From assembly GCA_944990035.1 (NCBI GenBank), contig CALYLX010000093.1, positions 124,001 through 188,000 of the forward strand: 64,000 bases of DNA, given 5' to 3'. This DNA comes from Clitopilus passeckerianus. Its lineage: Eukaryota; Basidiomycota; Agaricomycetes; Agaricales; Entolomataceae. This document shows positions 21,688 to 64,000 of the stretch, one piece after another. Both the position numbers and the translations under genes were made by a program. How positions within the stretch are numbered: position 1 is the stretch's first letter; each line of letters starts with the position of its first letter. The notes below the pieces were generated by a model. The model did not search any database, was not told the DNA's origin, and was given only the letters and a program-made list of their open reading frames with translations.

Positions 21688-22463
21688 ACTAGCCTCCGAA
21701 ACCTACAAGATATTTTGCTTACCGGGACTAGAACTACACATCGATTACTTATCAACTACACGACTAAGCCCTACTTGCTGCGCCCTAGCGTTTCTGAACC
21801 TTTGACACCAAATTTGCACCAAATCGCACCATGACCCTAACATCCAACCGGATACCATGTTTATACATGCGTCAGGTGAAAGTACCCCGTCCAGGGCCTT
21901 AATATCCTTTGAGAGTCTGAGTGAGATTAAATCAGGGCAATACTAGTCCCAGGAAATTGGATGTTACAATAATACGCATGCACCACAGGGGAATCACGTG
22001 CGTTGCTGACGAATACATAGTGTCGTGAGACGCATTGGCACTGAAAATGTGTACTCACCAATGACATGCTGTTCTCGCTATCGTCGCCTCAATATCGTCG
22101 CCGAGAGCCCGATAACAGGGCTGAGCTTTCTTGGATAGATTGCAGTGGTTAATGAAACGGTTTCCACCGCAATACAGATTTGGTGACGCACCACTCCAAT
22201 CATGGCCACGTTCCGTTCGGTCTCCCAGCTCGGAGTACCACTATAGCCACCTTCTCTGTCAGAGAATTCAATTGAGCCTTGGAGGATTGGAGATCTGGTG
22301 GGAGAGCTAGTGGCTCAACTGAGGGCTGCATCCTTCAAGTACAGAAAATGGTAAGCCCCTCCGATGTCATACGAAGGCATGTATTTCAACTCATGAACTC
22401 TTGGATTGTAGGTTCATAGCCTACTTCATCCACGGCGTCAATCTCTCTGGACAACGCAGCGTC
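21688..22463. other. intergenic region
   Basis: About 780 bases between P450-1 and membrane protein 1. No supported gene, repeat or RNA. Confidence 0.45.
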
Positions 22464-24007: not shown

Positions 24008-25178
24008 TTACACATAATTAAGGCCGCGGAAGAGGCGAGTTTGAGCCCTCATCCGAGCAGCTTGTCCTTGCGTGAAGCCATCCATACAGGAATCATCAGA
24101 GTAGTCCATGTAGTTAGCTGAGAACATAATCAAGTCAGGAGCAAGTCGAGTTGAAGTAAACAGCTGATACGCACTAACTGGGTCAGGGCCGCCACCTGGG
24201 CAAGTATCGCGGTTCTTGGGGCAACCACTAGCAGATGTAGCCTCAGGTGGTGTATCATCTACAGCGTCTCCTTCGCCAGAACAGCCTCCCTGGAAGGTGT
24301 GGTACAATCCCATCCAGTGTCCGACCTCATGGGTGAGCGTACGTCCAAGGTTGAAAGGAGTAGCTGAGCCATCCGGGAGTGTTGAGTACCGGATGGTAAC
24401 ACCGTCGTCCTTGGGGTTGGACTTGTAGTCTGCTGGGAAGGTAGCATATCCTAGGAGGCCTTGGGCGCTGGGGTCAGTAACGAATCTGTAGAGCGGGATC
24501 GTTTAGCAAAATGAGAGCAAAGGAATTGCGACTACATACCCAACAGTGTACACATTAAGGTCAGAGGAGTTTCCGGCCCTCAAGACCTGCTTCATGGCCG
24601 TCTGCTCTGGGCTGTGTGGCGATCACATCAGGGAAAGCCTGGAAAGAGTTGGAAGGAAAGCACACACCTTTCCGGAGCAACTTTATCGAACCAATCTTGA
24701 CTTATGACGCGAGTGGTATTGACGAGCTTCCAGCTTATTCCAGTACCGTTATAGTCATTGTTCAAAACTTCTATCTGCTTCTGGACCTGGATATCCCTGG
24801 AACACAATAATCTCGTCAGTCAAAACAATCTCCAGATCACGAGATATGCAAGAGAACTCACGATACCCATCCGCCTTCGATCGTCTGGTTTGCAGCAACC
24901 ACATGGAAGTGAACATCAATAACGGTGCTGGCGTTAGAGGGCAGTGGAGGAAGCCTGTTGGCCTGGAACTTCCTCTCGACAGAGGCAAATCTTTCGGGAC
25001 TTATATGAAAACCGCAGCCTCTATTGAACAGAACCAATCGATGTGCCCCGTCAGCAAACTGTTAATTGAACTCCTTCTATTGAGATCAATACCTTCTGAG
25101 TTCAACAGTCCGTGAGATGAGGTGAGGCGCAGCCAACACCGAGGAAGAAAGAAGCAGATTAAGAAGGATTGAAAACAT
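24008..25178 (-). CDS. secreted M43-family (pappalysin-like) zinc metalloprotease
   Basis: The first exon begins [20 protein letters not shown], a clear signal peptide. Downstream exons give [20 protein letters not shown] and NLNVYTVG-like sequence typical of fungal M43 enzymes. The zinc motif [11 protein letters not shown] (HExxHxxGxxH) is followed by [19 protein letters not shown], with paired Cys. The Met-turn region reads [18 protein letters not shown]. The protein ends FRGLNYV. All metal ligands are present, so it is probably an active extracellular endopeptidase of normal size (about 280-300 aa). It lies 3.6 kb from the secreted-repeat array; a role in trimming those peptides is conceivable but unsupported. 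Confidence 0.92.
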
Positions 25179-28816: not shown

Positions 28817-29663
28817 ATGAAGCTATCCTCCGCCTTCGTTGCTCTTACTCTCGCTTACGCAGTGGCTGCTGCTCCTTCTCCCGCCCAGGCGGTCCGTGAT
28901 ATTTTTGTCTCGAACTGGATGCCACATTGATACTAGTTTGAAACAGGCCGAACGCAGCGCCGCTACCTACACCGACCCTCATTTCGGCAGCAAGCACTGG
29001 GCCAAGAAACCTCCCCAGGTGGGCAATTTCCATTATCATCCAGGTCCAAGACTCACCTAAAGCTCATCAAGGTAAAGCGTAACGATGCCGCTGAGACCGA
29101 TACTGCGTACGATCGCGGCAGGAGCTGGGCTGGGAAGAAGCTTGTTGCCGAGGTAAGTTTGCTACCGTCGTCAGATACATCCAAGGCTTACCGGAGGGTT
29201 GTCAAGGTCAAGCGTAATGAGGCTGCCTCCACCGACCCTCATTTTGGTAGCAAACACTGGGTCAGGACGATCTCCGAGGTGGGTTGATTACCGTTGTTGT
29301 ACACATCCAAAGACTTACTCAAAGCTTATCAACCCCAAGCGTAACGAGGCTACGGCAACCGGTTCTGAACACGGTAGCATCAACTGGGTCAGGAAGAAGC
29401 TTGCACGTGCGCTCGAGAGCGTCAGCACGGACAACTTATTCCTGTTCAACCAAGCTTGGATCAAGCCCCCTGTCGTGAACGGAAAGAGGGCTATCCTCGC
29501 TCCCGACACTGATAAACTTGAGGTCTGTCCATACTGGTGCCCGGGCCAAAACATCCCGCACGAGAAAAGGGAAGAGGTGGAACGAGCGGTCGCGAGCGCT
29601 GACACAGATTTGGCGGACGCAACTGGAACTTGGCATGGGTCTCAACATGTCAAGGATGAATAA
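28817..29663 (+). CDS. KEP-A: secreted repeat precursor with Kex2-type sites
   Basis: MKLSSAFVALTLAYAVAAAP is a signal peptide encoded by exon 1. Each following short exon carries one repeat and begins, after a phase-0 intron, with VKR or a related basic word. The repeats are TDPHFGSKHW, TDTAYDRGRSW, TDPHFGSKHW again, TGSEHGSINW, TDNLFLFNQAW, PDTDKLEVCPYW and ADTDLADATGTW. Dibasic KR sites lie before most of them (VKRNDAAE, VKRNEAAS, GKRAILAP, HEKREEVE). Five of the seven have exactly seven residues between Asp (Gly in one) and Trp. I infer Golgi processing into several different short peptides. Last two cores resemble KEP-F. No enzyme domain. Alternative: small secreted effector-like protein. 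Confidence 0.75.
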
Positions 29664-29879
29664 TTGTTGATTAATCGTTGTTTTGTACCTACTTAATGAA
29701 GTTCAGTGGTTCGCCACTCGTTTATTGCAACCTATCTCTTCGAGAGGCAGGCTTCACGTTGATCCGACCCGATGTTGTCCTTCGGCTTCGGGATACCGAG
29801 AGAAGACAAGGCATCGTGACATAGCTGACGTAAATTCATAGCGAGCTCATTTGAGGATTCCCGGCAACTGCGTTAGCGG

Positions 29880-30249
29880 CTTTCGATAAAGGGCGACTCG
29901 TGGGCCATTTCATGATTCTAATTCAGCGTGAGCCACACTCAGGGTAATCATGGGTTCGAAGATAATCAAACAGCAGCTTCTTTTCACGAATACAGCTTTG
30001 TTGATCACGCCGATAATGCCAAGGCAGACGCTCATATGATGATTCCTCGCGCCATGAATGCGTTGTGTTGGGGCTTTGGTACGTACGGCTCGGGCTTCAT
30101 ACACCATGTGCCGTATGGTCATTCTCGCGGCGCAGCAATGCTAAGAGGTATTACGACACTTCCAAATGGTGATCGATCAGTGGCAGCAAGTTTAAAAAGT
30201 CGAAGATGGTAACATCCAAATCTACAATTTTGGCGTATCAAGAATCAAG
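29880..30249 (+). promoter_or_regulatory. duplicated upstream block shared by KEP-B, KEP-C and KEP-D
   Basis: About 350 bases directly upstream of KEP-B are recognisably repeated upstream of KEP-C (from about 31250) and KEP-D (from about 32700). Conservation extends to the bases just before each ATG (AATCAAGATGA). This is the probable common promoter; no TATA box is clear. Confidence 0.5.
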
Positions 30250-30673
30250 ATGAAGCTCATTGCCTCTATCGTAGCTCTGGCTCTTGCTTGCTCTGTCTAC
30301 GCTCTACCAGTGAATGAGGTATGCCCTCAGTCTTCTGCTGCGTGACATAGCTCACTAAAAATATCACAAATGACCCCCAGGCTGACCTCAGTGAGTTACT
30401 TGATTCATTGGTGGTCAACGAGGTCTGAATTTCTGCGACGGCGTTGAAGAGGTAGCTAATACCGACGCGGCCTTTGTCCGTCCAGGTTGGGTTGACTCTG
30501 GGTCTGGGGGGTCGGGTGCTCTGGCCCAGCGAGGAACTGAAAGCGCCGACAGCGACAAGATCCTGATCCAGCCTCTCTGGAAATTGTCGAAGGACGCCAA
30601 GCGAGGAACTGAGAGCGCCGACAGCGACAAGATCTTGATCCAGCCTCTCTGGAAGTTATCGAAGGACGATTAG
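30250..30673 (+). CDS. KEP-B: secreted repeat precursor
   Basis: Signal peptide MKLIASIVALALACSVYALP in exon 1, a tiny exon coding ADL, then the repeat exon. Repeats read NTDAAFVRPGW, then two nearly identical copies of RGTESADSDKILIQPLWKLS. All three have seven residues between Asp and Trp. Sites for processing are AQR and AKR before RGTES. The precursor is about 100 aa and ends SKDD. It shares its upstream block, signal peptide and ADL exon with KEP-C and KEP-D, so the three are tandem duplicates. Likely secreted; product unknown. Confidence 0.75.
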
Positions 30674-30934
30674 CCTATCCCATCGGCTTATCGCAGTCTG
30701 ACCACGCAGGTAAGTATGCAGCTGCATCCCCCAATACTCTCCTCTAATCGTCATAGTCGACCTATTTGGTCCGTTCTTGTGTTTCATTCACCACTTTCAA
30801 GACAGGTGTAGATGTGGGACCTTCAAGACGATTAAATTGGAATTTGTATCTATTACTTAGTTCAAAACCTTGTTCAATGGCGATGGATATCCTTCTCGTT
30901 GTCGACATTCATTTAGAAAAAGCATTCAAGTTCT

Positions 30935-31180
30935 GTAATGTCAAAACTCTTCAGCGCTCAGTATTTCGTTGGACGTCGCTCTCACTCTCGTTTACGAGTG
31001 GGCTGTGGCCCCTTTCCCGCTCAGGAGATGTTTTCGTCTCCGCCTGGATGCCACATTGATACTGGATTTAAACGGGTCGAACGCAACGATTCTGCCTATA
31101 CGGACCTTCAATTCCATAGCAAGTACTGGGTCGAGCGACCCGATGTTGTCCTTCGGCTTCGGGATATCGAGATAAGATAA
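30935..31180 (+). pseudogene. relic of a KEP-A-like gene
   Basis: The nucleotide sequence matches the 5' part of KEP-A: the signal-peptide region is recognisable but disturbed (TCTCACTCTCGTTTACGAGT in place of the KEP-A words), the intron-like GGATGCCACATTGATACT word is kept, and one repeat exon reads NDSAYTDLQFHSKYW. Later repeats are missing. Spacing from Asp to Trp is still seven. I infer a decayed duplicate. Confidence 0.6.
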
Positions 31181-31597
31181 AGCATGGTACCATAACCGAT
31201 GTAAATTCGCCAAGAGGTCATCTGACGATTGCCGACAACAACGCTGCCGGCTTTCAATAATGGGCGACTCGTGAGGCCATTTCATGATTTAAATTTAGCT
31301 TTGGCCACACCAAGATCACGACGGCTCCTTTAAACGAATATAGCTTTGTTGATCAGGTCGATAATGTCAAAGCAGACGCCCATATGATGACTCCTCACGA
31401 CATGAATCCCCTGTACTGGTACGTACGACTCGGGCATCATGCACCATGTCAACACCATGTACCGTATGGTTGTTATCGCTGCCGGCAATGTCATGGACGG
31501 ATGACGACGCTTCCTAAATGGTAATTGACTGGCAGCAAGTTTAAAAAGGCAAGGTAGTGAGATCCAATCCCCCAGTTTTGGCGTATCAGGAATCAAG

Positions 31598-32010
31598 ATG
31601 AAGCTCATTGCCTCCGTCGTAGCCCTTGCCCTTGCTTTCTCTGTATCTGCGCTACCATTAAATGAGGTATGTACCCCGTCTTGTGTTGACGGACACGACG
31701 AACTAAGAGTATGATGAATGACCCCTAGGCTGACCTCAGTAAGTCAGTTAATTCTTAAGCGGTCAATGTGTTCTTATTTCTGCGATGGCGCGGTGGAGAG
31801 GTAGCCGATACCGACGTAGCCTTTGTTCATCCTGCTTGGCTTAAGAGTGAAAGGCGTGATACTGCGGACGCTGATAGTGATTCGATCCTTTATCCTCCTG
31901 CATGGGCGAAGGAAACCAAGCGAGATGCTGAAAGTGCTGATACCGACAAATGGGTTTTCCCACCTGTTTGGGCGAAGCATGCGGAGAAGGGGACTGAAAG
32001 CGCCAAGTAG
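31598..32010 (+). CDS. KEP-C: secreted repeat precursor
   Basis: Signal peptide MKLIASVVALALAFSVSALP, then an intron after NE, an ADL mini-exon and a repeat exon. Three cores are seen: TDVAFVHPAW, DSDSILYPPAW and TDKWVFPPVW, each with seven residues between Asp and Trp. Basic sites are SERR and ETKR between cores. The end is AEKGTESAK. Tandem paralogue of KEP-B and KEP-D; cores have diverged while spacer words (AWAKETKR, ESAD) are kept, as expected for multi-product precursors. Confidence 0.75.
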
Positions 32011-32299
32011 CCTATCTCATCGGCTTGTCACATTTTGACGCCACAGGTAAGTTTTCGAATGCACCTCTCGATACCCTCCCCTGATCAATTTAGTCTTGGA
32101 TTTTGCAGTACATTCTCCAGTTTCAGGAAAGAGGTCAATGTGAGGCTTTCAAGATGATCAGACTCCGGGGATTTTGTAAATTGGAATTATCATATCGTTT
32201 GGTCCCAAACCCTGTTCAATGGTGATAGATATCCTTCTTGTTGTCAACACTCATTCGCGCAAAAGTGTTGAAGTTAGCGAGCTTTTGTGAGGTCCAAGT

Positions 32300-32530
32300 C
32301 AAAGTCCTTCAGCGCTCAGTATTTTGTTGGACGTTGCTCTTAATCTCGTCTACGCAGTGGCCTCTGTCACCTTTCCCCTCGGGAAGTCCGTGATGTGTTC
32401 ATCTCGGCCTCGATGCGTTGATACTAGTTTTAGACAGGTCAAACGCAACGATGCCGCCTATACGGACCCCCATTTCGGTACCAAACACTGGGTCAAGGCG
32501 CCCACGGAGGTGGGCTCTTTGCGATTGCCT
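32300..32530 (+). pseudogene. second relic of a KEP-A-like gene
   Basis: The region keeps the decayed signal-peptide sequence (no ATG in frame; TTG at the aligned place), an intron-like segment and one repeat exon reading VKRNDAAYTDPHFGTKHWVK, with seven residues between Asp and Trp. A donor-like GAG-GTGGGC follows, but no further repeat exon. Interpreted as a truncated duplicate; a non-annotated upstream start exon could still rescue it. Confidence 0.55.
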
Positions 32531-33059
32531 TCCATGCCCACTCACTCTACATTCGATATCATTGAGGCGCAGAATCTTTCGACCCACTTCTCATTGATCC
32601 GACCTTAGGATTTACAGATAAGAGGAAGCATTGTGCGAGAGATTACGTGAATTCGCCGCCAGTCCAATGAGGATTACCGAAAATATCACCAGAGAGCCTG
32701 CCAGCTTTCAATAAAGGGCGACCCGTGGCGCCATTTCATAATTTTAATTCAGTATGGCCATGCTCGAGCTGATCATGCGTTCAAAGGTGATCATAGGCTA
32801 GCTTCTTTATACGAATACAGCGTTGTTGATCAAGCCGATAATATCAAGGCGGCGAGCCGTATGATGGCTCCTCACGACATAAGTGCATTAGATTGGGACT
32901 TGGTATGTATAGCTCGGGCATGTTGCACGTAAGCTTGGTCGTTATCGCTGGCCGGCGTAGTAATGCACGGGCGTACCATGCGACGTCCCACGTGGTAATC
33001 GACTGATTTTAAAAGTTGGAAGGTGCTGAGCTACAATCCTCCAGTTCTGCCGAATCAAG

Positions 33060-33574
33060 ATGATGGTCATTGTCTCTGTCATAGCTCTTTCTCTTGCTCG
33101 CTCTGTCTCCACGCTTCCATTGAGTGAAGTATGCTATCAGCCTTCTGTTGCCCTACATAGCTCACTAAAGGTATCACGAATGATTTTAGGCCGACCTCAG
33201 TGAGTTATTTGGTCCAGTGGTGGTTAATGTGTGCTTACTTGGACTTCCTGCGATGCTGCGTTGAAGAGGTAGCCGATACCGACGTAGCCTTTGTCCATCC
33301 CGCTTGGCTTAGGTCTGAAGGGTCAGACACTCTAGCCAAGCGCGTTGAAGGAATAGCCGCTACCGACGTAACGTATACCCATCTCAACTCGCTCAAGGCT
33401 GAAGGGTGTGCCAGCGCAGAGGCCGATAGTGATTTGATACGTGGGCCTCCCAACTGGGCGAAGGAGACCAAGCGAGGAACTGAAAGCGCTGATAGTGACC
33501 TGATACTTTACCCTCCCGCGTGGGCGAAGGAAGCTAAGCGAGGAGCTGAGAGTGCTGATACCGACTCCGTTTAA
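33060..33574 (+). CDS. KEP-D: secreted repeat precursor with one degenerate repeat
   Basis: Signal peptide MMVIVSVIALSLARSVSTLP, ADL mini-exon, then five repeat units: TDVAFVHPAW, TDVTYTHLNSL (Trp lost), DSDLIRGPPNW, DSDLILYPPAW and a truncated final TDSV. Kex2-type sites are LAKR, ETKR and EAKR. Intact units keep seven residues between Asp and Trp. The truncated last unit looks like an internal stop within an older, longer array. Third tandem copy of the KEP-B type. Confidence 0.72.
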
Positions 33575-33804
33575 CAACTTGAGGAGGTGAGTTTCCGGCT
33601 TAATCTCTCGATCTTCTTGTCTGATCGACGAAATTGACCTATTAAGGTGGATCATAAAGGTTGCAAGACAGTGCTAGTTGTGGAACCCGAAGATGATTTG
33701 ACCGTAAGTTACAATCGTCGTCGTCCTGTAGTTCAAGCAAGTGTTCGTGTGGGGGTAGTCTGAATTGATGCATCTTCTCATTCTTTTTGGGAGAAAGCGC
33801 TTGG

Positions 33805-33850
33805 CTTCAAAGTTCTTCAGCGCTCAGTCTTTTGTTAGAAGTTCGCAGGC
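33805..33850 (+). pseudogene. fragment of a fourth KEP-A-like 5' end
   Basis: The word TTCTTCAGCGCTCAGT seen here also occurs, with small changes, at about 30950 and 32308 at the start of the two KEP-A relics. Nothing after it aligns. Confidence 0.4.
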
Positions 33851-34799
33851 TTGAAAGGAAGGTTCCAAAACGCTCTCGGACTTCAAAGCTTCAAGCTTGG
33901 ATAGACAAGCGAAATGCCCCAGTCACATCCGCGTTACGGTCCAGAGCTGTGACACTGACATGTCAAATAGCCCACGCCCGACGCCACAACTCGACATGCT
34001 TCAGCCTCGAGTCTGACAAGTGCCACCGAAGGACCAATATGTACCTGTCTAGAAACCACCTCTTTCCTTGCTCGAGACTATGTGAATGGAAAGAGAACCT
34101 TCGGATGGCCCTCAGATACTAGTAGACACAGGATCCCGTACCCGGCCCAGGAGAAGAGTACTTGAAGAGTGCTCTGCACGACCGTCGCCTATGCCATGTC
34201 ATTTGATCGGACTACCTTAAACGTCCAGGTCTGACAGTCCTCAGTCTTTCAATACTTCGCGTGCTACTCCATCCCATCTTTCGTGCTATTTCTATTCAAT
34301 AGGAGCTGACCCGACGCATAATCTTCCTGTGCGACTATGACTACGCGGCTTTACTCATCTCTTGTATTTGCCGTGCTACGTATACGCATCTTTGGATCCT
34401 GCCGGTGGCTTGCCGAAGAACCCTACGAAAAGACGCCCCACTACTCAACCAAAGCACTATCCCACTGTGCTATTGTGCTAGTTGGGCAAACCAAACAAAG
34501 GTTCGTAGTATGAGACCTGACTGAGCCTTACGCCCAGCTTCGAGTGGGCTTACCCTGAGATAACAACTCATATTCTCAGTGGATAATATCCGTGAATTCA
34601 GCCCCTCTGACATACCCGTGCTATAGAACGCACGGCCGCTGAAATCTTTTTATAAGTTCTGTTGTGGCCAACAATGCCGTTGTTAATGGGCGGTAATATA
34701 ATCTCGTCGTCGGTGGAGCCCTTATATTTCTTGCAACTTAAAAGGGCATGGATGCGACGGATTTTTTCATCCTCATAAGTTAAATCAGTTTAAACCAAA
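33851..34799. other. intergenic region
   Basis: Nearly 1 kb between the last relic and KEP-E. Short frames only (one at 34336 starts with a weakly hydrophobic stretch but has no repeat, intron or basic site). Confidence 0.4.
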
Positions 34800-35189
34800 A
34801 TGAAAGTACTCTCCACTGCGCTCCTCGTCGCTACGCTCTCCTCCTTGGTTGTTGCCGTTGCCTTACCATCTGAAGGGGTAAGTCACCACATATCCAGTCT
34901 TCTCTATACCTTACCACTCCGCTGACCTGCCTGTCAATAGGGCGGAAACCCAGTTCTGGGTGGTGCGGACACCGACACTAAGTACAAGGATCATGTCCGG
35001 GCCGGCCGTGCTCTGGAGAACGCAGACACCGATACCAAGTACAAAGATCACGTTTGGGCTGGCCGTGCCCTAGAGAATGCAGACACCGACACCAAGTACA
35101 AGGACCATGTCTGGGCTGGCCGATCTCTGGAGAGCGCAGATACGGACACCAAATACAAGGATCACGTTTGGGCTGGCCGCGCTGTATAG
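34800..35189 (+). CDS. KEP-E: secreted precursor with four near-identical 19-residue repeats
   Basis: Exon 1 codes MKVLSTALLVATLSSLVVAV, a signal peptide; an intron follows EG. Exon 2 codes four copies of ADTDTKYKDHVWAGRALEN. The Asp-Trp spacing is seven. In the first copy Trp is replaced by Arg (HVRAGRA). No dibasic site lies between units; only GR-ALE/SLE occurs, so processing, if any, would be at a single Arg. The high DNA identity between units points to recent expansion. Ends GRAV. Confidence 0.78.
34952..35186 (+). repeat. four tandem 57-bp coding repeats in KEP-E
   Basis: Units encode 19 residues each and differ mainly at third codon positions, such as GACACCGACACTAAGTACAA and GACACCGATACCAAGTACAA. 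Confidence 0.8.
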
Positions 35190-35541
35190 AGGGCTCATAG
35201 AGTAAGCGCGTAATTTTTCTTTACTCTGAAGTGCCTGCTGACACTCTTCCTCAGAGATGTCGAGAACACTTCACTAGATTTATTGTAAATTACGCTTGAA
35301 TTACGAATCTGATTGCCAGTCTGTACATGTATTTCCGAGATCGGTCTCCAGGACCATCAACCTGATAGTTCTATTCATTGCCAAAATCTCGGGCTGTCAT
35401 TCTTGACACCGAGTTGAAAAGCTGCCACATTTACCTGTCAGGAAACAAAAGGACGTCTGCGAATATTCTCTGAGTGAATAAGATACGAGATCTAATCAGA
35501 GGCTCAGATATACCCCTCGGTGGAGGTGTCAACACCTTCGC

Positions 35542-35548
35542 TATAAAG
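35542..35548 (+). promoter_or_regulatory. TATA box of KEP-F
   Basis: TATAAAG lies 50 bases upstream of the KEP-F ATG. Confidence 0.55.
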
Positions 35549-35598
35549 GGCGCCTTAGAATCCATATCACATCTCGATATCTTAGTGAGAATTCGAGA

Positions 35599-35886
35599 AT
35601 GAAGATCATCCCAATCGTCTCTCTTGCCCTCGCATGGGTTATATCAGCTGCACCAGTCCCCGGTAGCCAGGTAAACTACGTTGCATTCCAGATAGGGTAT
35701 GATGGTTTACCGATGGTATAGATTCGTGCTGTACAAGGCGCAGAGACTGACCTTTTGTTCCTCTTCAATCAGCATTGGGCAACAGAGCCGGACAAGGATC
35801 GAGTTGCCAGGAGTTCAGAGGCAGACACTGACCTAGTCGATGCCATCGACGTATGGCACGGATCTGGAACTGATAAATTGAGCTGA
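35599..35886 (+). CDS. KEP-F: small secreted precursor with two cores
   Basis: Exon 1 codes MKIIPIVSLALAWVISAAP, a signal peptide, and PGSQ before an intron. Exon 2 codes ETDLLFLFNQHW (eight residues between Asp and Trp), a spacer with DKDRVARSS and ADTDLVDAIDVWHGSG (seven). These two cores closely match the last part of KEP-A (TDNLFLFNQAW and ADTDLADATGTWHGSQ). The protein is only about 75 aa. It ends TDKLS. No other domain. Confidence 0.7.
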
Positions 35887-36852
35887 GGTGCTGTTTACGC
35901 TTGTGCAAGCTGATTGTGCGTGTCACAGTACTGCCTATTTTTGAACGAATTATGACTGAGAAAGCATGCAGAACTATCCCGAGGATGGAGGGTGGTACTT
36001 GCATTCCTGGGGTATAGAGAACCACATTTTCTGTTGAATAAAATTTAGCTTTTACATGTCGAAAATCTTTTCCACCCTGCACATAGGTTAATCGCTTGGT
36101 TCAATTGATTTGGGCTCATGGCGTCAGCGAGGGACCCAGTCGGTTTTCGAATTCAAAGTCAGAGTCTGGACAGTGGAGATAGCCGGATGTCGGCAGCTTC
36201 GGCCATCATCTCAATGACGTATGCCAATGAGCCGTGCACAACTTGTGGTTACGTCAGTCCTTTGAATTCCACGATTGAATACTCTCCGAAGTGACCATGT
36301 GGACTTGAAGGCCACACAGATAATGATGTACCCTACTACCTTCTGACACCACGGATCCCAGGAATTCTATGGACACTCGGCTCCTGCTGAAACTCTCTGA
36401 CTAGTAGCTCTCGTCTCCTTTTGGCTAACAGATCACGATGCGTTTCTTGCAACTCGATCCGCTAGTCCATCCTATAACGAAGGTTTGCCCGGGCCTAACA
36501 GAGGGCTTTGAGCCTGATCTTCGGCTCTACTCTACTATTAGCTATCAAGAAGCCATGAGATAGCAACGTAAGATGACGATGTCTCTCCTGCCAACGGCAC
36601 AAAGGTGCTTGGTCAGTCACAAACGCGGGTGGGCGTCTTCAGGGACGCTATCTGTCGAGCTTGAACGCCCGTGCCGCTCTATCTGCTCGACTTGGACAAC
36701 TTGAGCTGGGTAACCCCACAACAATTGAGATGGACCATCTGGTCGTGTCAAAATGTATGGCAAAACTCAGTCGGTCACCTGTTCTACAGTCGAATAGAAA
36801 AAGGTATTTACCTCTTGATAGCCTTGGCTCGCAACCCTAAGTTCTTTTCCAG
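35887..36852. other. intergenic region
   Basis: About 970 bases without a supported gene; a short minus-strand frame at 35765-36082 is antisense to KEP-F and has no support. Confidence 0.4.
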
Positions 36853-37280
36853 ATGAAGCACACTGCCGCTGTTATCATTTTTTTCACCGTCCCCTTCTTT
36901 ATCGCCGCTGCTCCTGCTCCGGCGGAAGAGGTTGGTACTCGCCCCACTGTTCCATTGGTAGGACCATTCTAATCACATACTCAGGCTGCACGAGGTCTCG
37001 AGGCTGCTGATACCGACCTCGGATATGGCAGCGCTCATTGGACTGTCAATCAGAAGCGGAGCGTAGTCGCGGCTCTCGATAACGCAGATACTGATAGAAA
37101 TGGCGACGATAAATACTGGGTCAAACACAAGGAACGGTCTACTGCGAGTGCTGAGACTGATCAGGCGTTCGACTTCAGTTGGTCTGATGGACAGTGGAAA
37201 AAAGTTGTGCGTATAATTGTGCGCTGCTTTGTGTATTCTCTAAGCTATCTTTCCAGAGTGATTATCGCCGCAGTGAATGA
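36853..37280 (+). CDS. KEP-G: secreted precursor with three different cores
   Basis: Signal peptide MKHTAAVIIFFTVPFFIAAAP, intron after EE, then a repeat exon with ADTDLGYGSAHW, ADTDRNGDDKYW and AETDQAFDFSW. Spacings from Asp to Trp are seven, seven and six. Candidate processing sites are NQKR, HKER and a final DYRR in a small last exon that ends SDYRRSE. All three cores differ, so this gene would yield three distinct peptides. Spacing and basic sites match KEP-A to KEP-F. Confidence 0.72.
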
Positions 37281-38514
37281 GATGTCGAGTCATGTCGGTT
37301 GTAATTTCCATGGTTGACTATACATCCGTGGCTGTAGAACACCAAGCACGAAATAGCTCTGTTGCTGACTGATCACCGTTGTAAATTGAAGCCAATGCCC
37401 GAATTCAGTGAAAACGTTAATATCTTTTTCGAGATTATCGAGACCAGTTTGAGCCACTTGAGCTCCCCGCTATGAGCGTGTTTGTATGACAGAAGCACGA
37501 CTGCTGAGAATATGCGGGCCGCCGGTAATTACCCCATGCATGAGTTGGATAGGTATTTCCTCGGAGTCGTTCCAACTAAATTCTAGCCCCCAACTCAGAG
37601 CTAACTTATCTGCCGACGCCTGGCCACCCGCCATGATACTGAACTATCTGCTAGTGAACCCGACTCCACTTTTGACGTTCTCATCACCATAAATTCTGCA
37701 ACAAATACTACATTCTGTGCCTGATAGATACAATGTGCCGGACATACCCACATGATGAGGGTGAAGATACTGGACTCTTGTGAACTCGTAGCAAACTCTT
37801 GACATTGTCTTGTTCCTCTTCGTTTAATCGATCGGCCGACCAGGCTGATGCAACCAGCTACTACTACGGATGGCTTCAATTCATTCTTCGAACTTGGAAT
37901 CGTCTTATCTTATATGACAAGACCACTTGCGTTGTATGAGGAGATACGACGGTTGAAGCTTGAAGCTTCGACCGCACCCTCTTAGAATACCGAATCTTGC
38001 CAGAGAATCTACGAGTTAGGGTACATGCTCTTGTTACAGTTGTGGCCATGTCTTGCTTCACTGTGTTCTCTAACTGTTCAACGGGAAGCTGATCAATGGC
38101 CACACGTTATTTTCACGTCGCACTGGGGAAGCGTACACGACCTAAGCACAGGGTCCAGGCGATCTAGCACAATTTTGCCAAGCATTGTGAATAATATTGA
38201 TCAAGATATTTGGAAGTCTATCATTATTAACAGCCCGGCAGATGCGCCGACGGGATATTTTTAGATTTGACGGCTTTCCGGCTTGTCAGGAACGCAACTC
38301 CTGCATTCTGACGTCTTTGAGCCGGTTTACGTCCTTCAATTTACTAGGCCTCAACTCATTGCACGGTTATCGTCTGTTAACAAATGCTGCATGTGAGAAC
38401 GAGACCACCTGGTGAAGTCAAAGAATGACAGCACACAGATACTCGTGGATACTCTGGAACGGACGTGAAATGACTTGAACACCCTTTTTTGCTCCTCAGA
38501 GATCTATAAAGGTG
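37281..38514. other. intergenic region
   Basis: About 1.2 kb with several short frames on both strands but no signal peptide, (T/S)-D-x-W repeat or known domain. Confidence 0.4.
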
Positions 38515-38520
38515 GTTCGA
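38515..38520 (+). promoter_or_regulatory. TATA box of KEP-H
   Basis: TATAAA lies 55 bases upstream of the KEP-H start codon. Confidence 0.55.
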
Positions 38521-38575
38521 AATTTACCATTGGAAACATTCCTCAGTTCTAACACTACTTGTGAATACGTTTGAC

Positions 38576-39982
38576 ATGAAGCTCTCTGCTGCTTTTGTCC
38601 TTGCCGCTCTCTCTGCTCTCACCGTCGCTGCCCCAGCTTCGGAGGTGCGTTTGTTCGTCCCCCGTAATTATTCTCGTCCTTGACCATTACTGTCCACCAT
38701 AGTACTCACCCCCCGATACCGATATTACTTTCACAATCAGCCGCGCCGCCAATGCTACTAAATGGCAAGTCAGCGTAAGTGCCCGTCTTTGGACCGATAA
38801 CGGATGCAAAACTGAAGCTCAATTCACAGCGAGATCTTGAAGAGATCAAGCGTGCTGTCGAGGGTACCGCTGACACGGATATCACGTTCACTATCAGCCG
38901 CGCTTCTAGCGCTTCTACATGGAAGGTCAACGTGAGTGACTGGTTTATGAACACCGTTCTTTCAAAGTCTTACCCAACGCACAGCAAGCTAGAGATGTCG
39001 ACGAGCTTCATGACATCCTCAGGCGTGCCACCGATGGCACAGCTGACACCGATATTACTTTCAGCTTCAAGAGGGTCTCCGATCCCGCTGTAATCAAGTG
39101 GAAGGTTAAGGTGGGTAACTCTGCTTGATTAGAGAAGAACATCAAAGTGAACATATCCAAATATTTGTAGGCTCCTGAAGCTCGCAGGGATATCCTCGAA
39201 CGCAGCGAGGCCAATACCGACATTACCTTCAACTTTAAAGAGGCTGATACCGACTCTGATAAACCTGCTGCTATCAAGTGGAAGACCAAGGCGAGTGGTC
39301 CCTCCATCTTTGATAGAAACTGGCATTGACGGACACGAAGGCTCCCGACGCTCGTCGCGAGATTGACGGACGCAGCGAGGCCAATACCGACATTACCTTT
39401 AACTTTAAGGAGGCTGATGGGGAGAAACCTGCTGCTATCAAATGGAAAACGAAGGTTAGCTACGTTTCCGAAAGAGATGGTCGGAGTATTAATCATCAGG
39501 TAGGCGCCTGAGGAAAGTCGAGACCTCGAGGAGCGTGGCGAGGCCAATACCGATATCACCTTTTCCTTCAGAAAGGCTGAGAGCGACGGAGCTCGCCCTG
39601 CATGGGGTGTCAGTGTAAGTTACTTGCGTACTCTTGACATGTTAGGGCACGGGTTCTCATGTTCTATAGGCAAATCGCCGTGATATCAAAGAGCGAGGCG
39701 AGGCAAACACAGATATTACCTTCTCCTTCAGGAAAGCTGAAAGCGATGGAGCTCGCCCTGCATGGGATGTTAGTGTAAGTTACTTGCGTATTCTTGACGT
39801 GGGAGGGCATGAGCTCACAAATACTACAGGCGAATCGCCGTGATATCGAAGAACGTTCCACTGCGGATACCGATATTACCTTCACCATCAGCTCCCAGCC
39901 CAGCACTGGCAAATGGAGGTGCTGCGTAAGTATTCATGTTTGATCCACCTTGTGCTTCGCTGACCTTGCTACATAGTCTTAA
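38576..39982 (+). CDS. KEP-H: secreted precursor with eight repeats, one repeat per exon
   Basis: Signal peptide MKLSAAFVLAALSALTVAAP in exon 1. Eight further exons each carry one unit, starting with charged spacer such as RDLEEIKRAVEG, ANRRDIKERGE or APDARREIDGRSE. Each unit has a core opening TDITF: TDITFTISRAANATKW, TDITFTISRASSASTW, TDITFSFKRVSD, TDITFNFKEAD (twice), TDITFSFRKAESDGA (twice) and TDITFTISSQPSTGKW. Each unit ends with Trp near its 3' splice site. Asp-Trp distance is longer than in KEP-A to KEP-G (13 to about 19). Basic sites are RR and KR. A tiny last exon adds Ser and stop. One intron donor appears to be GC (AAG-GCGAGT at about 39290). Exon-wise duplication clearly built this gene. 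Confidence 0.78.
38700..39930 (+). repeat. exon-sized tandem repeats in KEP-H
   Basis: The exon plus its flanking intron is the repeating unit. The last three introns share GTAAGTTACTTGCGTA or close variants, showing that introns were duplicated together with exons. Confidence 0.75.
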
Positions 39983-40309: not shown

Positions 40310-42479
40310 TTAGAAGCTCGCCAAATCCTCTGCAGCCGTCCACGCGCGGATAGCTTCAACCGCGCCCTGTGACCTCGGGGTAATCTCGCATTGGAAGGGA
40401 ATCGGAGACCTGTAAGAACGCTACGTGAGTTTAGGGGAGACCATACAAGGAGTGAACCCGTACCGAGCTAGCCCTTCCACCCGGCCCTCCGCTGGCTCAA
40501 TAGTCTGGCCGTCAGGACCCTTCTTCTTGGAGAAGTCAAAGTTCGAAAGGAGCGTAGCAGCTGTGATCATCAAGGTTGAGAGCGCAACGTGGCGTCCGGG
40601 GCATATTCTGAATCCACTGTAAGGAATATGTCCAGCAACACGGAGTAGGAACTAACCTCCTTCCGAAACCAAACACGATATCCAACGAGCTGAGGGCTTC
40701 TTCGTCGATCTTGCCATCTTTGAGGAAACGCTCTGGTTTGAATTCGTGAGGGTCAAGGAAGTCTTCTTCATTGGATAACAAGGCGCTACAAGCAAATATG
40801 TCAGTGGTTGTGTGCCGCAATAGACTCCATTCATACCCCTGGTTAGCGATGACTACTGAGCCCTTTGGAATACGATATCCTTCGTATACATCATCATCTG
40901 TGACAGCATGGGGAACACCTAGAGAGGTCGGCCATTAATAACCCAATGATCCTTTCATCCAGAGGAGCCGACATACCCAGAGCTGTGACTGGTTTCCATC
41001 TCAAGGGGGAAACGTATCAGCACGAGTTGATTTGTGTCGGGGGGAGGTAGCTTACCGTAGGACTTCCATTATCAAGGCAGTCAAATACGGGAGTGAGAGG
41101 ATCTCTGAATGATCTGGGAACTTGCCATGGCCGTGAAGTGCGCTGTCTAGTTCCTCTTGTGCCTTCTTCTGTGCTCTGGGATATTTCACTAGGGCTAGGC
41201 ATAATACGAATAGGCTGGCCGTGATCGTGTCGACGCCGGCTAAAACAGTCTGGGTGATCAGAAAAGTTGCACTGCACGAAGTGAAAGACCGTACCAAGAT
41301 AAACCATGCCTGCCATGCTCCTTAACCGATCAAGGTCGGCCACATCATGATCTCCTTTCTGTTCAATGTCTTCGATACCAGAAGAGACAAAAGATGGCAG
41401 TGCATCCCCTGATTTCTACGTCAGATGAGTCTTAGTTAGGTCCGTTTTAATCACCACAAAGTGACAAGACTAACCAGAAGCTCCTGTGCGGCCTCAAATG
41501 GTACCTCCATAACCCTCGTAGATAGATCTTTATGGTAGGCTGCAGTCTTCTTGAATTTGATGCCTGGGAACCAAGAGGGGAGGTGCCTCGCAGCAGGCCA
41601 AATATCGGGTAGGAATGGGCCCTCCAACGCAAGCATCGATAGCTCGCGGGCGCCCTCTTCGACAAGGCGGACATATGGGTCGTCCTCAGAACGGACTTTG
41701 ATCCCGTATGCGGAGGTGATTAAGATAGCCCCAGCCATGCTAACAATCATCAGTACGTAACTTGGGTCGGGATAGACCCTTAACTCACTGTCGGAGGTGG
41801 TCAAAAAATTTGTCGGGGGTTTCGATAAGATGGTTTAGGAGTCGACGAGCGTGGTAGAGTTCTTTAGGGTAGTGAATCTTTCCATCGATTCCCATGTGCT
41901 TCTGGAAAGCCCTGCGTCGGTCCCTCCATTTGTCCCCGTATTGATTCAGAGCAAACGCCCAGCCCCAGCCACATCTGTAAAATAAAGAGATATAGTGGGG
42001 TCGCTTCAAAAGTCCGAAGTTACTCACAGTTCTGGCACCATGATGGTGCCCGGTCTGAATAGTGAATGTCAACTGTACGCTCGTGAGTAGGTACTCGTCG
42101 AATACCCACCGACTGGAATAGATGCCAGACCGTTTCTCTAGTAGTTCACGGGCTGTTTTGAGGGAACTTAGGACGACAATCGATTGACCCAGAGTCCCGA
42201 GGTGAATGATATCGGAGTCTAGAAAACGAATTTGGGTCAACTCGTATTCGCATAGGTTCAGTACAATAAGTTACCAGCTTGTCTGGCTATCTCAGCGAAA
42301 ATCTCGTGGTCAAGCTTGGTAGGCATGTTCAGGAGATTGTCAATGATTGGGAGCTTCTTGGGTCCAGGAGGAAGTTTCTGGACTGCTCTCCACCAGCTGA
42401 GCAGCCGTAGCAGTCCATAAACGCCAGCCAGGGTAGCGCATAGCACTGGTGTCGAGGAAGATGGTATTGTTCCAGTCAT
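40310..42479 (-). CDS. cytochrome P450 (P450-2), paralogue of P450-1
   Basis: Starts MTGTIPSSSTPVLCATLAGV (an in-frame ATG lies four codons upstream). Membrane anchor, then LPPGPKKLPIIDNLLNMPTK. I-helix AGVDTITASLF, ExxR in MEVLRWKP, PERF in FKPERFLKDGKIDEEA, and heme loop FGFGRR joined by splicing to GFRICPGRHVAL. The C-terminus is GAVEAIRAWTAAEDLASF. Exon structure and many segments match P450-1, for example LPSWFPGIKFKKTA and GPDGQTIEP. It lies 330 bases from the end of KEP-H and is transcribed toward it. Substrate unknown; modification of a peptide or small lipid product is possible. Confidence 0.9.
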
Positions 42480-48877: not shown

Positions 48878-49877
48878 ATGCCTCAGTCAAACCAGGGCTA
48901 TACGCAACTACCAGTACATCTCAGTAATATCTTACAAACTGAAGAGGACGAAGGCAAGCTCGAACCTGATGAGCTAGAGAATCCTTCAAGCTCTCGAACT
49001 AGTAAACGGATCTCTAGAGAGAGACTGCTCTTCGTCGCTCTTGTCCTTCAGTCACTTGTCTTCCTTGGCTTTCTACTGTCCTCTAGGAGGAGCTCATATG
49101 CTGAGCGTGCCAATGATAGTCCTCGTCTGTACTGTAAGTTTGAACAACCTCTTGGAGTCGTCTAATGGCTCAATCCTTCAGCCCCCGTCACACCGCTTTT
49201 GCGTGAAGAAATCAAGGTTTTTTCTGGTGGATTTCAGCAACGCAGTATCTACCAAGGCGTCGGAGAAGATGTAGACCAAGCTTGGAACGAGCTGTACGGA
49301 GGTACGCGAATGAATCGGCACTCGTGCGGCACTGTTGATCACCGCGACAGAAACAACATTGAGACTTCCTTACTCTGAGGCCGTTCAGCTACCCAACAAG
49401 ACGTGGCCCATTGGGAGTGATCCAGGCTACTACATCGCTCAGCTCGATGTCTTCCACCAACTCCATTGTCTGGTGAGCTATCTCTGCGTCCTCTTTCGCT
49501 AGCTGGCCTGATCCCGTACCCAAGAACAAGCTCAGGAAAAAACTCGAAGACCCCGGGAATGCTAGTCCCCACGCAGAGCATGATCATACTTCCCACTGCG
49601 TGGATTCCTTACGTCAATACATCATGTAAGTGGTCGCCTCATTCTGCATACGAAATCTCTAACCTAGGTTAGGTGCAATATCGACATCTCCGTTGTAGTA
49701 TGGCAATGGAGTGAGGCTTCGAAAAAGGTGCTCCCGAACCTGTCCTATCCCCACAAGTGCTACAACTTCGAGGCGATACGTGAATATGCTAGGGCCAACA
49801 AGATTGACGGGTACATTAATCCAGACGTTTTTGTAGATGACGGCCTCCCCGATCCACCAGTGATACATACTACGTAG
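48878..49877 (+). CDS. UstYa-like protein 1 (DUF3328 family)
   Basis: Exons at 48878-49133, 49182-49301, 49351-49472 and onward. A single membrane segment lies at residues 49-68 (LLFVALVLQSLVFLGFLLSS). The lumenal part has EIKVFSGGFQQRSIYQG, AWNELY, then the two HxxHC motifs: FHQLHCL and DHTSHCVDSLRQYI. The C-terminal block is VVVWQW, YPHKCYNFEAIREYA and DDGLPDPPV. In ascomycetes, UstYa-type proteins oxidatively crosslink or cyclise Kex2-processed RiPP precursors in the secretory pathway (established for ustiloxin). All motifs are intact. It converges with UstYa-like 2 and lies 2 kb from KEP-I. Member of a large basidiomycete family, not all of which need be RiPP enzymes. Confidence 0.88.
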
Positions 49878-50404
49878 GAATTCTTGGAACACGCAATTTA
49901 GTCACGGTACGACCGGAGTTTACTAGAATACGATGTCTATTATTTCTTGAAAAAATACAGATCAATAGATTATACTACAATCAACTCAGCACAATTTTCG
50001 ATCCACACGTGCTTGGTGCTTCTCGTTTCGATATGTGTATTCGCGGACTGATCCAAAGCTTGTCGTAAAGCGTCGCGTACGATTCGTCCCAGCTGACAGC
50101 CCAGGACGGTCTCCGACGTTATCACTGTGACGTATAAGAACGCCAGGTCCTTCTTTATAGCCAGGTTCGGGGGAAAGCTTCCGACTTCTAGCCTCAATAG
50201 AGCCGAAGATAAGGGAAGGGGCCGAGCGGATGAAGGAGGCGACGCAGACGAAATTCTTCTAGCACGAACGTAAGATTGAATAGTGCGTTAGCAATCCAAG
50301 CTAGTGCATCGCGTTGAGTGTACTTTCTAGAACCCAGGTATTGACATGCACGGAAGAAATTAATCTCGTCACTGTATTGCCCCAATTTTGGAGATATGTA
50401 CCAA
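49878..50404. other. convergent intergenic region between the two UstYa-like genes
   Basis: About 530 bases between the two stop codons. A minus-strand frame at 49970-50197 has no domain and is probably chance. Confidence 0.45.
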
Positions 50405-51391
50405 CTACTGGATAATTACAGGTTCCGGAAGATCGTTCTCTACGAAGGCAAACTTGTTGAAGCCAGGTCGCACCTGATTTTCTCTCGCCCAACGATGGAT
50501 CGCCTCAAAATTGTTGCACTTATGGGGGTGGGTAAAGACCGGATTCGCTGCACGTTCCTCGGGCTCCCAGTTCCATACAATGACGGATACGTCAATATTA
50601 CACCTATATACCCCGGAATTAGCAGCGACATAATGGTCGATTAAACTGGGTACGTACATGATGTACTGACGGATTGAATCGAGGCAATGCGACAAATGTT
50701 CGGGGGTGAAACCTGGATGGTGATCACCGCCCATAACTCGTCTGATGGAATTCTGAGAAGATATCCCTTGAATCAGCACGAGTCTATGACGTTTGAAAGA
50801 GACCGACCAAGCAGTGTAGCTCATGGAAAACATCGAGCTGTGCGATGTAGTGACCTTGGTCGTTTTCAATCGGCCATGTGCGGTTTGGAAGCAGGAGGGC
50901 TTCTTCCCTACTAAGTCGCATCGTTGTTCCTATTAAGAAGTTGAGTCAGAAGAAAGACGTTTCGACCTGAAGGGATGCAGGCTATACCAAGGTATAGATC
51001 CTCCCAGGCGCTCTCTGCTTCAGTGCTGTTTCCTTGGTAGATCGTTAAGCCCTTGAGTCCGTCTGAAAACACCTTGATCTCATCGCGCAAAAGATGGCGT
51101 GCAGGAGCTTGAAAAAGTCAGCGCTGTCAGAGAATCATAGCTTTGCCTTTGCTCACAGAACGGAACACTCTCCGCGTCAGAACCCGGTCGCCTGATGGCG
51201 ATGAGGGTTAACGCAGCTACAAGAACGATGATGCCTTCTAAGGCTATGACAATCGTCAGGATCCTGTTTATGCGATACAGACGGGTTGCACGAGAGGATT
51301 CGCGATGGCAATAATAATCCTTCTCATTCTCGGGTAGCCCGGATGGAGAGGTTGGAACAAGAGGGAGCTCCTCAGAGGACCTGTCGGCCAT
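50405..51391 (-). CDS. UstYa-like protein 2 (DUF3328 family)
   Basis: Starts MADRSSEELPLVPTSPSGLP with a membrane segment at about residues 45-66 (LTIVIALEGIIVLVAALTLI). Lumenal part: HLLRDEIKVFSDG, LTIYQG, AWEDL, then AQLDVFHELHCL and EHLSHCLDSIRQYIM, giving both HxxHC motifs. The last exon holds CNIDVSVIVWNWEPEE, HPHKCNNFEAIHRWA and NDLPEPVIIQ. It is a diverged paralogue of UstYa-like 1, sharing exon structure, in the opposite direction. Its start is only 473 bases from the start of KEP-I, so the two probably share a promoter region. Two UstYa-type proteins near one precursor is the arrangement known from dikaritin clusters. Confidence 0.88.
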
Positions 51392-51864
51392 AGTCGAAAC
51401 TCAAGAGGGAGGAAGAGTGAGTCGGACAAGGTCGTGGTTCAGGTTATCTGAGCCGTAGTTCCATTCGGCCCCTTCAGTGTAACTGAATACGGTTAGCTTC
51501 TTTGCTGGAGATAACCACACGTCAATCACACCTAACAAGAAGAACGCACGCAAGAATTCCCTAAGCTCGATTTCTGCCGTGACAGAATCCTCCATTAGAC
51601 GTCAATGCATCTCCGAAGGTCCAATCCGAGGCATGAAAATGGAGTCAGCGGTGCACAGCACCTTTCATTATACGACAGGTGGAATACAGCAGTGTCGAAT
51701 GAACTTCGATGGATAGCTAAAGACCTCACTTCATGACTCCGCCCTTCAAATCCATTTTTGGCAGCCAGGACCATATAAAATGCCCCGGTATAAGAAGAGT
51801 TCCGTATTGGCCTCAATCCATACTTGTCTCTTCATCGACTTCAATTCATCCTTCACAAACGTTA
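51392..51864. promoter_or_regulatory. shared divergent promoter region of UstYa-like 2 and KEP-I
   Basis: 473 bases separate the two start codons. On the KEP-I side TATAAAA occurs at 51774-51780, 85 bases before the ATG. The frame at 51401-51595 on the minus strand has no support. Confidence 0.55.
51774..51780 (+). promoter_or_regulatory. TATA box of KEP-I
   Basis: TATAAAA 85 bases upstream of the start codon. Confidence 0.55.
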
Positions 51865-52459
51865 TGAAGCTCTCCTTGGTTTTGTTGACTGCTTTGGCTG
51901 CCTGCCTCACTCAGGCTGCGCCCACACCTCCAAAGGACCAGACGGCAAGTGATAACCCACTGCAGGGTAGAATGTTCAATGCTAATTCATCGTCGTACAG
52001 CTCGCCGCCCGTGACATGAACGGAGCCGACATCTTTTTCTATTCCTGGGGCGAGTTCAAGAAGGGAGCTTCTGCACCAAACACCGCGGACAAAAATTACG
52101 CCCATTTGGGTGACGAGGTTCAGGAGAAGCGCGAAGAGCACGCAGAGGACATTTTCTTCTACAACTGGGGTGAGGAGGTCAACGCCAAGCGTGCGCCTGA
52201 GGAGCATGCCGAGGACATTTTCTTCTACAACTGGGGTGAGGAGGTGAATGCTAAGCGCGCGCCTGAGGAGCATGCGGAAGATATTTTCTTCTATAATTGG
52301 GGCGAAGAGGCCAACACCAAGCGTGCACCTGAAGAGCATGCTGAGGACATTTTCTTCTATAATTGGGGCGAGGAGATCAATGCTAAGCGCGCACCTGAGG
52401 AGCATGCTGAGGATATTTTCTTCTATGATTGGGGCCAGCAAGCCGAGCGCTCTGAGTAG
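51865..52459 (+). CDS. KEP-I: dikaritin-like repeat precursor next to UstYa-like genes
   Basis: Signal peptide MKLSLVLLTALAACLTQAAP. Exon 1 ends KDQT, followed by an apparent GC-AG intron (51949-52003) with a good TGCTAAT branch site, and exon 2 starts LAARDMNG. Then comes a first degenerate unit ADIFFYSWGEF and a spacer ending EKR, four full copies of EEHAEDIFFYNWGEEVNAKR with small changes, and a last copy reading DIFFYDWGQQAERSE. KR sites separate the units, as in Kex2-processed RiPP precursors. The core is EDIFFYNW, with aromatic residues F, F, Y, W that are typical targets for UstYa-type crosslinking. Five residues lie between Asp and Trp. Strongest RiPP precursor candidate in the window. 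Confidence 0.85.
52133..52459 (+). repeat. five tandem 66-bp coding units in KEP-I
   Basis: Units begin at 52133, 52199, 52265, 52331 and 52397, exactly 66 bases apart. Base changes are mostly silent and the core codons are the most conserved part; the fifth unit is shortened after the core. Confidence 0.85.
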
Positions 52460-63784: not shown

Positions 63785-64000
63785 CTAATGGACAATTTCC
63801 GGAGTTGGGAGTCCGTCATCTACATAGACCATGGGATCAATATACTCGTCAATGTGCCTCTTCTCAACCCATTCTCTCAGCGCCTCGAAATTGACGCATT
63901 TGTGAGGATACTCCAGTCGTGGGCGCACGACCTTATCCTCTTTATCCCATTGCCACGGAATGACCGAAATGTCAGCGTTACACCTGTTGCATATACCGTT
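63785..64000 (-). CDS. UstYa-like protein 3 (DUF3328), 3' end only
   Basis: The last exon (63785-63983) reads CNADISVIPWQWDKEDKVV, YPHKCVNFEALREWVEKRHI, DEYIDPMVYVDDGLPTPEI and a stop. This matches the final exons of UstYa-like 1 and 2 residue by residue at CNxDxSV, W-x-W, HPHKC/YPHKC-x-NFEA and DDGLP. The acceptor just upstream (CAACAG) is at the same place as in the other two. The HxxHC motifs and membrane anchor must lie beyond the window. Whether another precursor gene sits next to it cannot be seen. Confidence 0.8.
   Translation of the reverse strand, partial: NGICNRCNADISVIPWQWDKEDKVVRPRLEYPHKCVNFEALREWVEKRHIDEYIDPMVYVDDGLPTPEIVH

Follow-up and report, generated by a model that had tools for sequence, protein, structure and literature searches.

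Kex2-processed repeat proteins (KEPs) and dikaritins have already been described (PMC7329392, PMC6339444). The dikaritins ustiloxin, phomopsin, asperipin-2a and victorin share a signal peptide, repeated cores and basic cleavage sites with the genes studied here, an array of eight repeat precursors in the basidiomycete Clitopilus passeckerianus. The array lies in a stretch of 64,000 nucleotides (the window; C93:124001-188000, contig CALYLX010000093.1) of an assembly of 64.8 Mb in 160 contigs, and its genes carry the labels KEP-A to KEP-H given to them in a preliminary description. Dikaritin precursors are linked to UstYa genes, as are several similar precursors elsewhere in the Clitopilus genome; the array itself is 8.9 kb from a UstYa pair. 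UstYa proteins carry DUF3328, and DUF3328 enzymes are dicopper oxidases (PMC12186524). Known dikaritin crosslinks are formed at Tyr, or at Phe in victorin (PMC9233826), whereas the array has a recurrent Trp and only irregular Tyr, which is absent from cores such as PHFGSKH, KILIQPL and LADATGT. The dikaritins named in the cited papers come from Ascomycota.

Two further groups resemble the array in their use of Trp. The DUF3328-linked KEP type P-3 of Umemura 2020 has Trp and Pro in its repeat, as the array does; a DUF3328 gene lies within 15 genes in 4 of its 7 members, and Galerina, Psilocybe and Coprinellus are among the genera that have the type (PMC7329392). Type P-3 was compared by description only, and the part of that paper drawn on here does not mention an acidic A-D-x-D start for it. 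The linear KEPs of Vogt et al. 2022 have short cores ending in Trp, with Pro before the Trp as in KEP-B to KEP-D. Their peptides follow X-A or X-P motifs, whereas the array has an acidic start and residues past the Trp; the main text of that paper says nothing of DUF3328. Burpitides (lyciumin, moroidin) provide a chemical analogy, since their copper-enzyme side-chain crosslinks can use Trp (PMC12186524), but their enzymes are plant BURP-domain copper cyclases, a family other than UstYa. The array family is not without precedent: KEPs, dikaritins, type P-3 and the linear Trp-ended mushroom peptides qualify the earlier remark that no described family with its pattern was known.

The array consists of eight plus-strand genes (28817-39982) that splice into small repeat proteins with a hydrophobic N-terminus. 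The genes and the degenerate copies between them are as follows.

28817..29663, + strand: KEP-A, splice model; five exons and seven units (TDPHFGSKHW, TDTAYDRGRSW, TDPHFGSKHW, TGSEHGSINW, TDNLFLFNQAW, TDKLEVCPYW, TDLADATGTW)
30250..30673, + strand: KEP-B, splice model; three exons, the second of 10 nucleotides; TDAAFVRPGW and SDKILIQPLW (x2)
30945..31180 (approximate), + strand: degenerate KEP-A-like first exon and unit TDLQFHSKYW, from open reading frames (ORFs) and the sequence by eye
31598..32010, + strand: KEP-C, splice model; TDVAFVHPAW, SDSILYPPAW, TDKWVFPPVW
32310..32520 (approximate), + strand: second degenerate KEP-A-like copy, unit TDPHFGTKHW, from ORFs and the sequence by eye
33060..33574, + strand: KEP-D, splice model; TDVAFVHPAW, TDVTYTHLNS, SDLIRGPPNW, SDLILYPPAW and a truncated final unit
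34800..35189, + strand: KEP-E, splice model; four TDTKYKDHV(W/R) units whose differences are almost all synonymous
35599..35886, + strand: KEP-F, splice model; TDLLFLFNQHW and TDLVDAIDVW, similar to the end of KEP-A
36853..37278, + strand: KEP-G, splice model with uncertain final exon; TDLGYGSAHW, TDRNGDDKYW, TDQAFDFSW
38576..39982, + strand: KEP-H, splice model with uncertain final exon; eight TDITF...W units, one per exon, spacing 13-19

The spliced models bore out the description of eight secreted repeat precursors with an intron following the hydrophobic N-terminus: such an intron was present in all eight, and each N-terminus was signal-peptide-like as judged by eye. The introns were GT-AG except for intron 5 of KEP-H, which has a GC donor, and intron 4 of KEP-A, whose initial model lacked an AG acceptor and whose boundary was shifted by 6 bases. 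Where KEP-G and KEP-H end is uncertain. KEP-B, KEP-C and KEP-D are close paralogues with a common 10-nucleotide second exon. Because degenerate KEP-A-like copies lie between KEP-B and KEP-C and between KEP-C and KEP-D (a KEP-A probe matched the second at C93:156435-156509), duplication probably copied an A-type and a B-type gene together, as far as the sequence read by eye indicates. The first units of KEP-A and the units of KEP-H occupy separate exons with lengths that are multiples of three, so units could be gained or lost without a frameshift.

Dibasic sites precede many units in KEP-A to KEP-D and some in KEP-G and KEP-H. KEP-E has only a single Arg between units and KEP-F has R-x-x-R, with no KR, RR or KK between the repeats of either. 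Array units following KR start with GTES, DAES, NDAA, NEAA, VEGI or AVEG. No STE13-type X-A or X-P dipeptide stands in register directly after a Kex2 site in the array units, and X-A occurs only as the second dipeptide, in two KEP-A units. Beyond the Trp there are more residues (AKET, KLSKDA, LKSE) ahead of the next dibasic site. Pfam searches covered 15 chosen window ORFs. Of the eight precursors, KEP-A, B, E, G and H were searched and gave nothing above the cut-off, the sub-threshold matches of E and H being chance-like; an Rfam search was uninformative. We conclude that the array is a set of secreted tandem-repeat precursors, and the precursor status of its genes is well supported.

The preliminary description had counted about twenty units with seven residues between Asp and Trp (x7) and a few with six or eight. 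Repeat cores were examined in the mature parts, that is, after residue 22, as were the shuffles and the copy comparison described below. KEP-A to KEP-G contain 30 Thr/Ser-Asp dipeptides there. The nearest Trp follows after seven residues in 18, after eight in 3, after six in 1, and after one and two residues in 1 each. The short-spaced Trp of TDKWVFPPVW is accompanied by another at seven, giving 19 x7 cores in total. Of the 30 dipeptides, 6 have no Trp within 20 residues. One KEP-A unit has Thr-Gly, and one unit each in KEP-D and KEP-E lacks the Trp. In 5000 composition-preserving shuffles of the mature parts, the number at spacing seven averaged 0.31 with a maximum of 4, and whichever spacing scored highest in a shuffle also reached no more than 4; since the array units are related by duplication, this test does not count independent events. 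The 19 cores comprise 14 distinct strings, 12 of which are mutually identical at no more than 3 of 7 positions. The ends and the distance therefore persist where the middle does not, in agreement with the fixed ends and variable middle described earlier. An alignment of 18 chosen units (A1) shows invariant Asp and Trp by selection, as duplicates and units lacking either residue were excluded from it.

The x7 core did not extend to KEP-H, which keeps both ends but, measured from the Thr-Asp that comes first in a unit, has spacings of 13, 13, 15, 19, 17, 16, 16 and 13. The x7 spacing as a general rule was rejected on this ground and on the spacings of 5, 6, 8, 9 and 10 in similar units elsewhere in the genome; it is local to the array.

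The nearest UstYa genes lie downstream of the array, beside a further precursor. The features of this part of the window are as follows.

40420..42270 (approximate), - strand: cytochrome P450 adjoining KEP-H; PF00067, E 7.7e-10, one ORF
48878..49878, + strand: UstYa (DUF3328) gene; PF11807 match at 49665-49799, HQLHC and HTSHC, N-terminal hydrophobic stretch, exon joints unsettled
50408..51391, - strand: second UstYa gene; HELHC and HLSHC, N-terminal hydrophobic stretch, PF11807 E 2.4e-13 on the largest ORF
51864..52459, + strand: Kex2-type repeat precursor next to UstYa; units such as KRAPEEHAEDIFFYNWGEEVNA (Asp-x5-Trp), open spliced frame
63857..63982, - strand: one exon of another UstYa gene, which continues past the window; PF11807, 35.5 bits, C93:187857-187982

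Both UstYa genes carry two HXXHC motifs and are upstream of the precursor at 52 kb, the second by 0.5 kb. The precursor has near-identical EEHAEDIFFYNWGEE units and also HAEDIFFYNW, and together with the two UstYa genes it forms a compact dikaritin-like locus. PF11807 gave 68 exon matches in this genome and 0 in 14 control genomes.

Similar precursors were found elsewhere with a genome-wide protein probe; in these searches, scores are given for the best candidates only. There were ten matches (three each on C93 and C142, and one each on C141, C74, C26 and C123), and all ten had a PF11807 match within about 3 kb. Several of these sites are mutual copies, which leaves five distinct loci, or six with the 52-kb gene. 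The precursors at 38, 87, 94 and 97.7 kb of C93 have units such as KREEATG-ADSDATFHRSSNGGWYYG, KREEATK-ADDDIVFLPQSVGGWAPG, KREEAVK-ADSDATALLYTNWST and KADTDNVFVYLPHGWANP; similar units are ADSDATFHRSSNGGW at 38 kb, ADDDIVFLPQSVGGW at 87 kb and ADSDATALLYTNW at 94 kb. The C74 unit is KREEAAKADTDLGFRLGSPAGW, and those of C26 and C123 (KRSEAAEADTFLQRGIYW) lack the second Asp. Strict Ala-Asp-x-Asp is present in four of the six UstYa-paired loci, and the distance from Asp to Trp in the other Kex2-type repeat precursors of the genome ranges from x5 to x10. On C82 there is a unit, SEANSDIVFTYW, that resembles SEANTDITF of KEP-H, and KRSEANSDIVFTYW on the same contig is intermediate between the 52-kb type and KEP-H. 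Searches with probes based on KEP-A, on the B-D units, on the E-G units and on KEP-H matched only C93 and C142, apart from a weak C83 match (E 0.29).

Based on these results, the reading we favour, although it could well go either way, is that the array is an expanded set of dikaritin-like precursors whose peptides are perhaps modified in trans by UstYa at the Trp. Tandem duplication would have produced the eight Kex2-type precursors. From the KEP architecture and known KEP biology, each would be secreted and then cut at basic residues into a number of short peptides, which would begin with an acidic (T/S)-D, in many cases A-D-(T/S)-D, and carry a Trp close to the other end. Because similar precursors are paired with UstYa/DUF3328 oxidases, oxidative modification or cyclisation is a likely fate of these peptides. 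The linkage and the published dicopper oxidase role of DUF3328 enzymes suggest that UstYa-type enzymes would oxidise or cyclise them in trans; Trp would then take the aromatic role that Tyr has in most known dikaritins. The most plausible biological role would be chemical interaction with other organisms. A more specific version, which we consider rather unlikely, is that a UstYa enzyme holds on to the acidic start, which is invariant, and oxidises the Trp at a set distance or links it, making the array a library of same-sized loops with free middles. The P450 beside KEP-H is possibly a tailoring enzyme and possibly a bystander.

Several results weigh against UstYa modification of the array peptides. 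The array contains no UstYa gene. KEP-H is separated by 8.9 kb, and KEP-A by about 19 kb, from the nearest one, and the interval holds the P450 together with two or more further ORFs, one at 44.0-44.9 kb without a Pfam match and another with a sub-threshold TerB match. Umemura 2020 (PMC7329392) accepted DUF3328 genes up to 15 genes away, the mean distance being 3.09 genes; on that criterion the end of the array closest to UstYa could qualify as DUF3328-accompanied, but so wide a limit makes this a weak test. Ustiloxin and phomopsin clusters, though not that of asperipin-2a, have a tyrosinase, whereas none of the 12 genome matches to PF00264 is on C93 or C142. The likeness of the array to the UstYa-paired precursors consists of a short motif and not of an alignable protein, and the 52-kb and C26/C123 loci carry A-E-D or A-D-T and not A-D-x-D. 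Searches of public proteins gave 16 candidates for KEP-D, 5517 for KEP-H and 99 for a shortened C93:87-kb precursor, none at E <=1, and so no homologue in other species came up with these three queries. Among the PF11807 matches listed, none lay within 100 kb of the relatives on C59, C139, C82, C79 and C141 (286 kb) or of two weak C83 relatives (E 0.16 and 1.1). Conversely, the UstYa genes at 59 kb and 188 kb of C93 had no such precursor nearby in our scans, and the flanks of ten other UstYa matches (about 1.5 kb on each side) contained no repeat ORF. These relatives without UstYa and UstYa genes without precursors show that the linkage is neither universal nor one-to-one. The shared machinery proposed earlier thus has a candidate enzyme 8.9 kb away and six UstYa-paired loci in its favour, and against it the drift in spacing from 5 to 10, or 13-19 in KEP-H.

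Conservation of the units was examined in a second copy of the locus, C142:162001-191000, which is colinear with the window (90% identity over one 16-kb stretch) and is, most simply, probably the other haplotype. The window models were lifted to C142, units were defined by either copy, and codons gapped in C142 were dropped. None of 62 Thr/Ser-Asp codons had an amino-acid change (there were 5 synonymous changes), compared with 13 of 285 codons in the unit middles and 48 of 533 in all else. The difference between Thr/Ser-Asp and the rest was significant (Fisher, p 0.006). The same test was less favourable in other forms, which count against UstYa modification: Thr/Ser-Asp alone against the core middle gave p 0.14, and Thr/Ser-Asp plus Trp gave p 0.77 against the middle and p 0.065 against the rest. 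In addition, 3 of the 31 alignable units have lost their Trp, and on this count we rejected a stronger constraint on Trp than on the residues around it. In two of the three, KEP-D unit 2 and KEP-E unit 1, the Trp is missing from the window and stands at exactly seven in C142, so the exceptions to x7 may in part be decay; the KEP-E case rests on an ambiguous pairing of four repeats with two. The third is a stop in KEP-C of C142. Spacing was therefore held between the copies in alignable x7 units, the form of drift that the preliminary description had asked about, whereas the Trp itself was not always kept.

In C142, KEP-C has lost its start codon, its final Trp is replaced by the stop and its intron 2 is about 236 bases longer; KEP-A has a stop ahead of the last unit, and its lifted intron 4 lacks an AG end. 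Repeat number also differs, KEP-E having four units at 34800-35189 and two at C142:171.9 kb. The ratio of nonsynonymous to synonymous change between copies (dN/dS), with stop and gapped codons omitted, was 0.14-0.34 for KEP-A, B, C and H. It was 1.36 for KEP-E (ten changes), 0.61 for F, 0.55 for G and 0.50 for D, each from few changes. The opposite is seen within KEP-E, where the four repeats differ by 35 synonymous and 3 nonsynonymous differences in sum (pN/pS 0.02), and pN/pS was 0.01 for the 52-kb gene, 0.00 for C93:38 kb and 0.05 for C93:87 kb, in units chosen by amino-acid pattern (all 4 of KEP-E, 9 of C93:38 kb, 8 of C93:87 kb and 5 of 6 of the 52-kb gene).

The main rival is that Kex2, Kex1 and trimming exopeptidases release linear, minimally processed peptides whose Trp is the C-terminal residue or close to it, and that these act as signals or effectors without UstYa chemistry. 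We regard this as a serious alternative, though somewhat short of an even chance. The Trp-ended peptides that mass spectrometry has detected from mushroom KEPs are linear, which also counts against UstYa modification: QMRPPSW and QYKAPSW were obtained from a Coprinopsis KEP produced in the yeast Pichia, AADW-ended peptides such as SGVAADW were detected in Lentinula and Pleurotus, and in BLAST searches numerous KEPs of basidiomycetes had cores with a C-terminal Trp (PMC9769878). The YPPAW, FPPVW and IQPLW ends of KEP-B to KEP-D resemble these peptides. DUF3328 neighbours were reported for only 103 of 1680 basidiomycete KEPs, whose Trp content was alike with and without DUF3328 (20.5 and 24.5%; PMC7329392). 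The lack of UstYa genes inside the array also favours linear peptides, and the UstYa-paired units at C93:94 kb (KREEAAKADADATFLYHW) have X-A runs resembling STE13 motifs. However, the array Trp is not the last residue before the dibasic site, X-A or X-P does not follow the Kex2 site in register, and the similar precursors are UstYa-paired.

It is improbable that the precursors act intact or partly cut, as secreted wall, surface or effector proteins in which the repeats are structural. KEP-E, with no dibasic sites between its units, and KEP-H, with long units on separate exons, would suit such a role; the short, diverse units with dibasic sites in KEP-A to KEP-D would not, nor would the lack of Pfam matches above the cut-off in the five precursors searched. 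Least probable is that the array is mostly decaying duplicates of little function: the degenerate copies between KEP-B and KEP-D, the damaged KEP-C and KEP-A of C142 and the dN/dS values of KEP-D to KEP-G fit decay, but the values for KEP-A, B, C and H and the KEP-E repeats, kept almost wholly at the amino-acid level, do not.

If the array peptides are indeed modified by UstYa at the Trp, the enzyme family could extend to Trp and to Basidiomycota. By titles and abstract openings, with subscription journals thinly covered, a literature search found no characterised Trp-based UstYa product and no characterised product of a dikaritin or DUF3328 cluster in Basidiomycota, which is not evidence of absence. 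Array cores with fixed ends and differing middles would be a natural series for studying enzyme recognition. Should the peptides be linear, the array would nonetheless form a large tandem group of Trp-ended secreted peptides of the mushroom type.

Some further observations concern the surroundings of these genes. One precursor type recurs in similar form at C93:38 kb, C142:47 kb and C141:556 kb, with a UstYa match adjacent in every case; some parts of the region may therefore be present in the assembly in more than two versions. A secreted repeat precursor of a different type, with units HHVAGHVQEADTVDKR and without Trp, lies at C93:105753-106133 (locus L021). Related P450-like genes flank the array at 19518-21696 and 40420-42270, only the latter with a Pfam match; the former has 67% DNA identity to the C142 counterpart of the latter. 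The genome has short introns, UstYa genes and a GH7 cellulase gene, and the PDB entries closest to this cellulase come from both Ascomycota and Basidiomycota. Within the window, Pfam identified a metallopeptidase M43 ORF at 24011-24502, about 4 kb ahead of the array, and a large NLR-like ORF with NPHP3_N/NACHT domains at 14867-16654.

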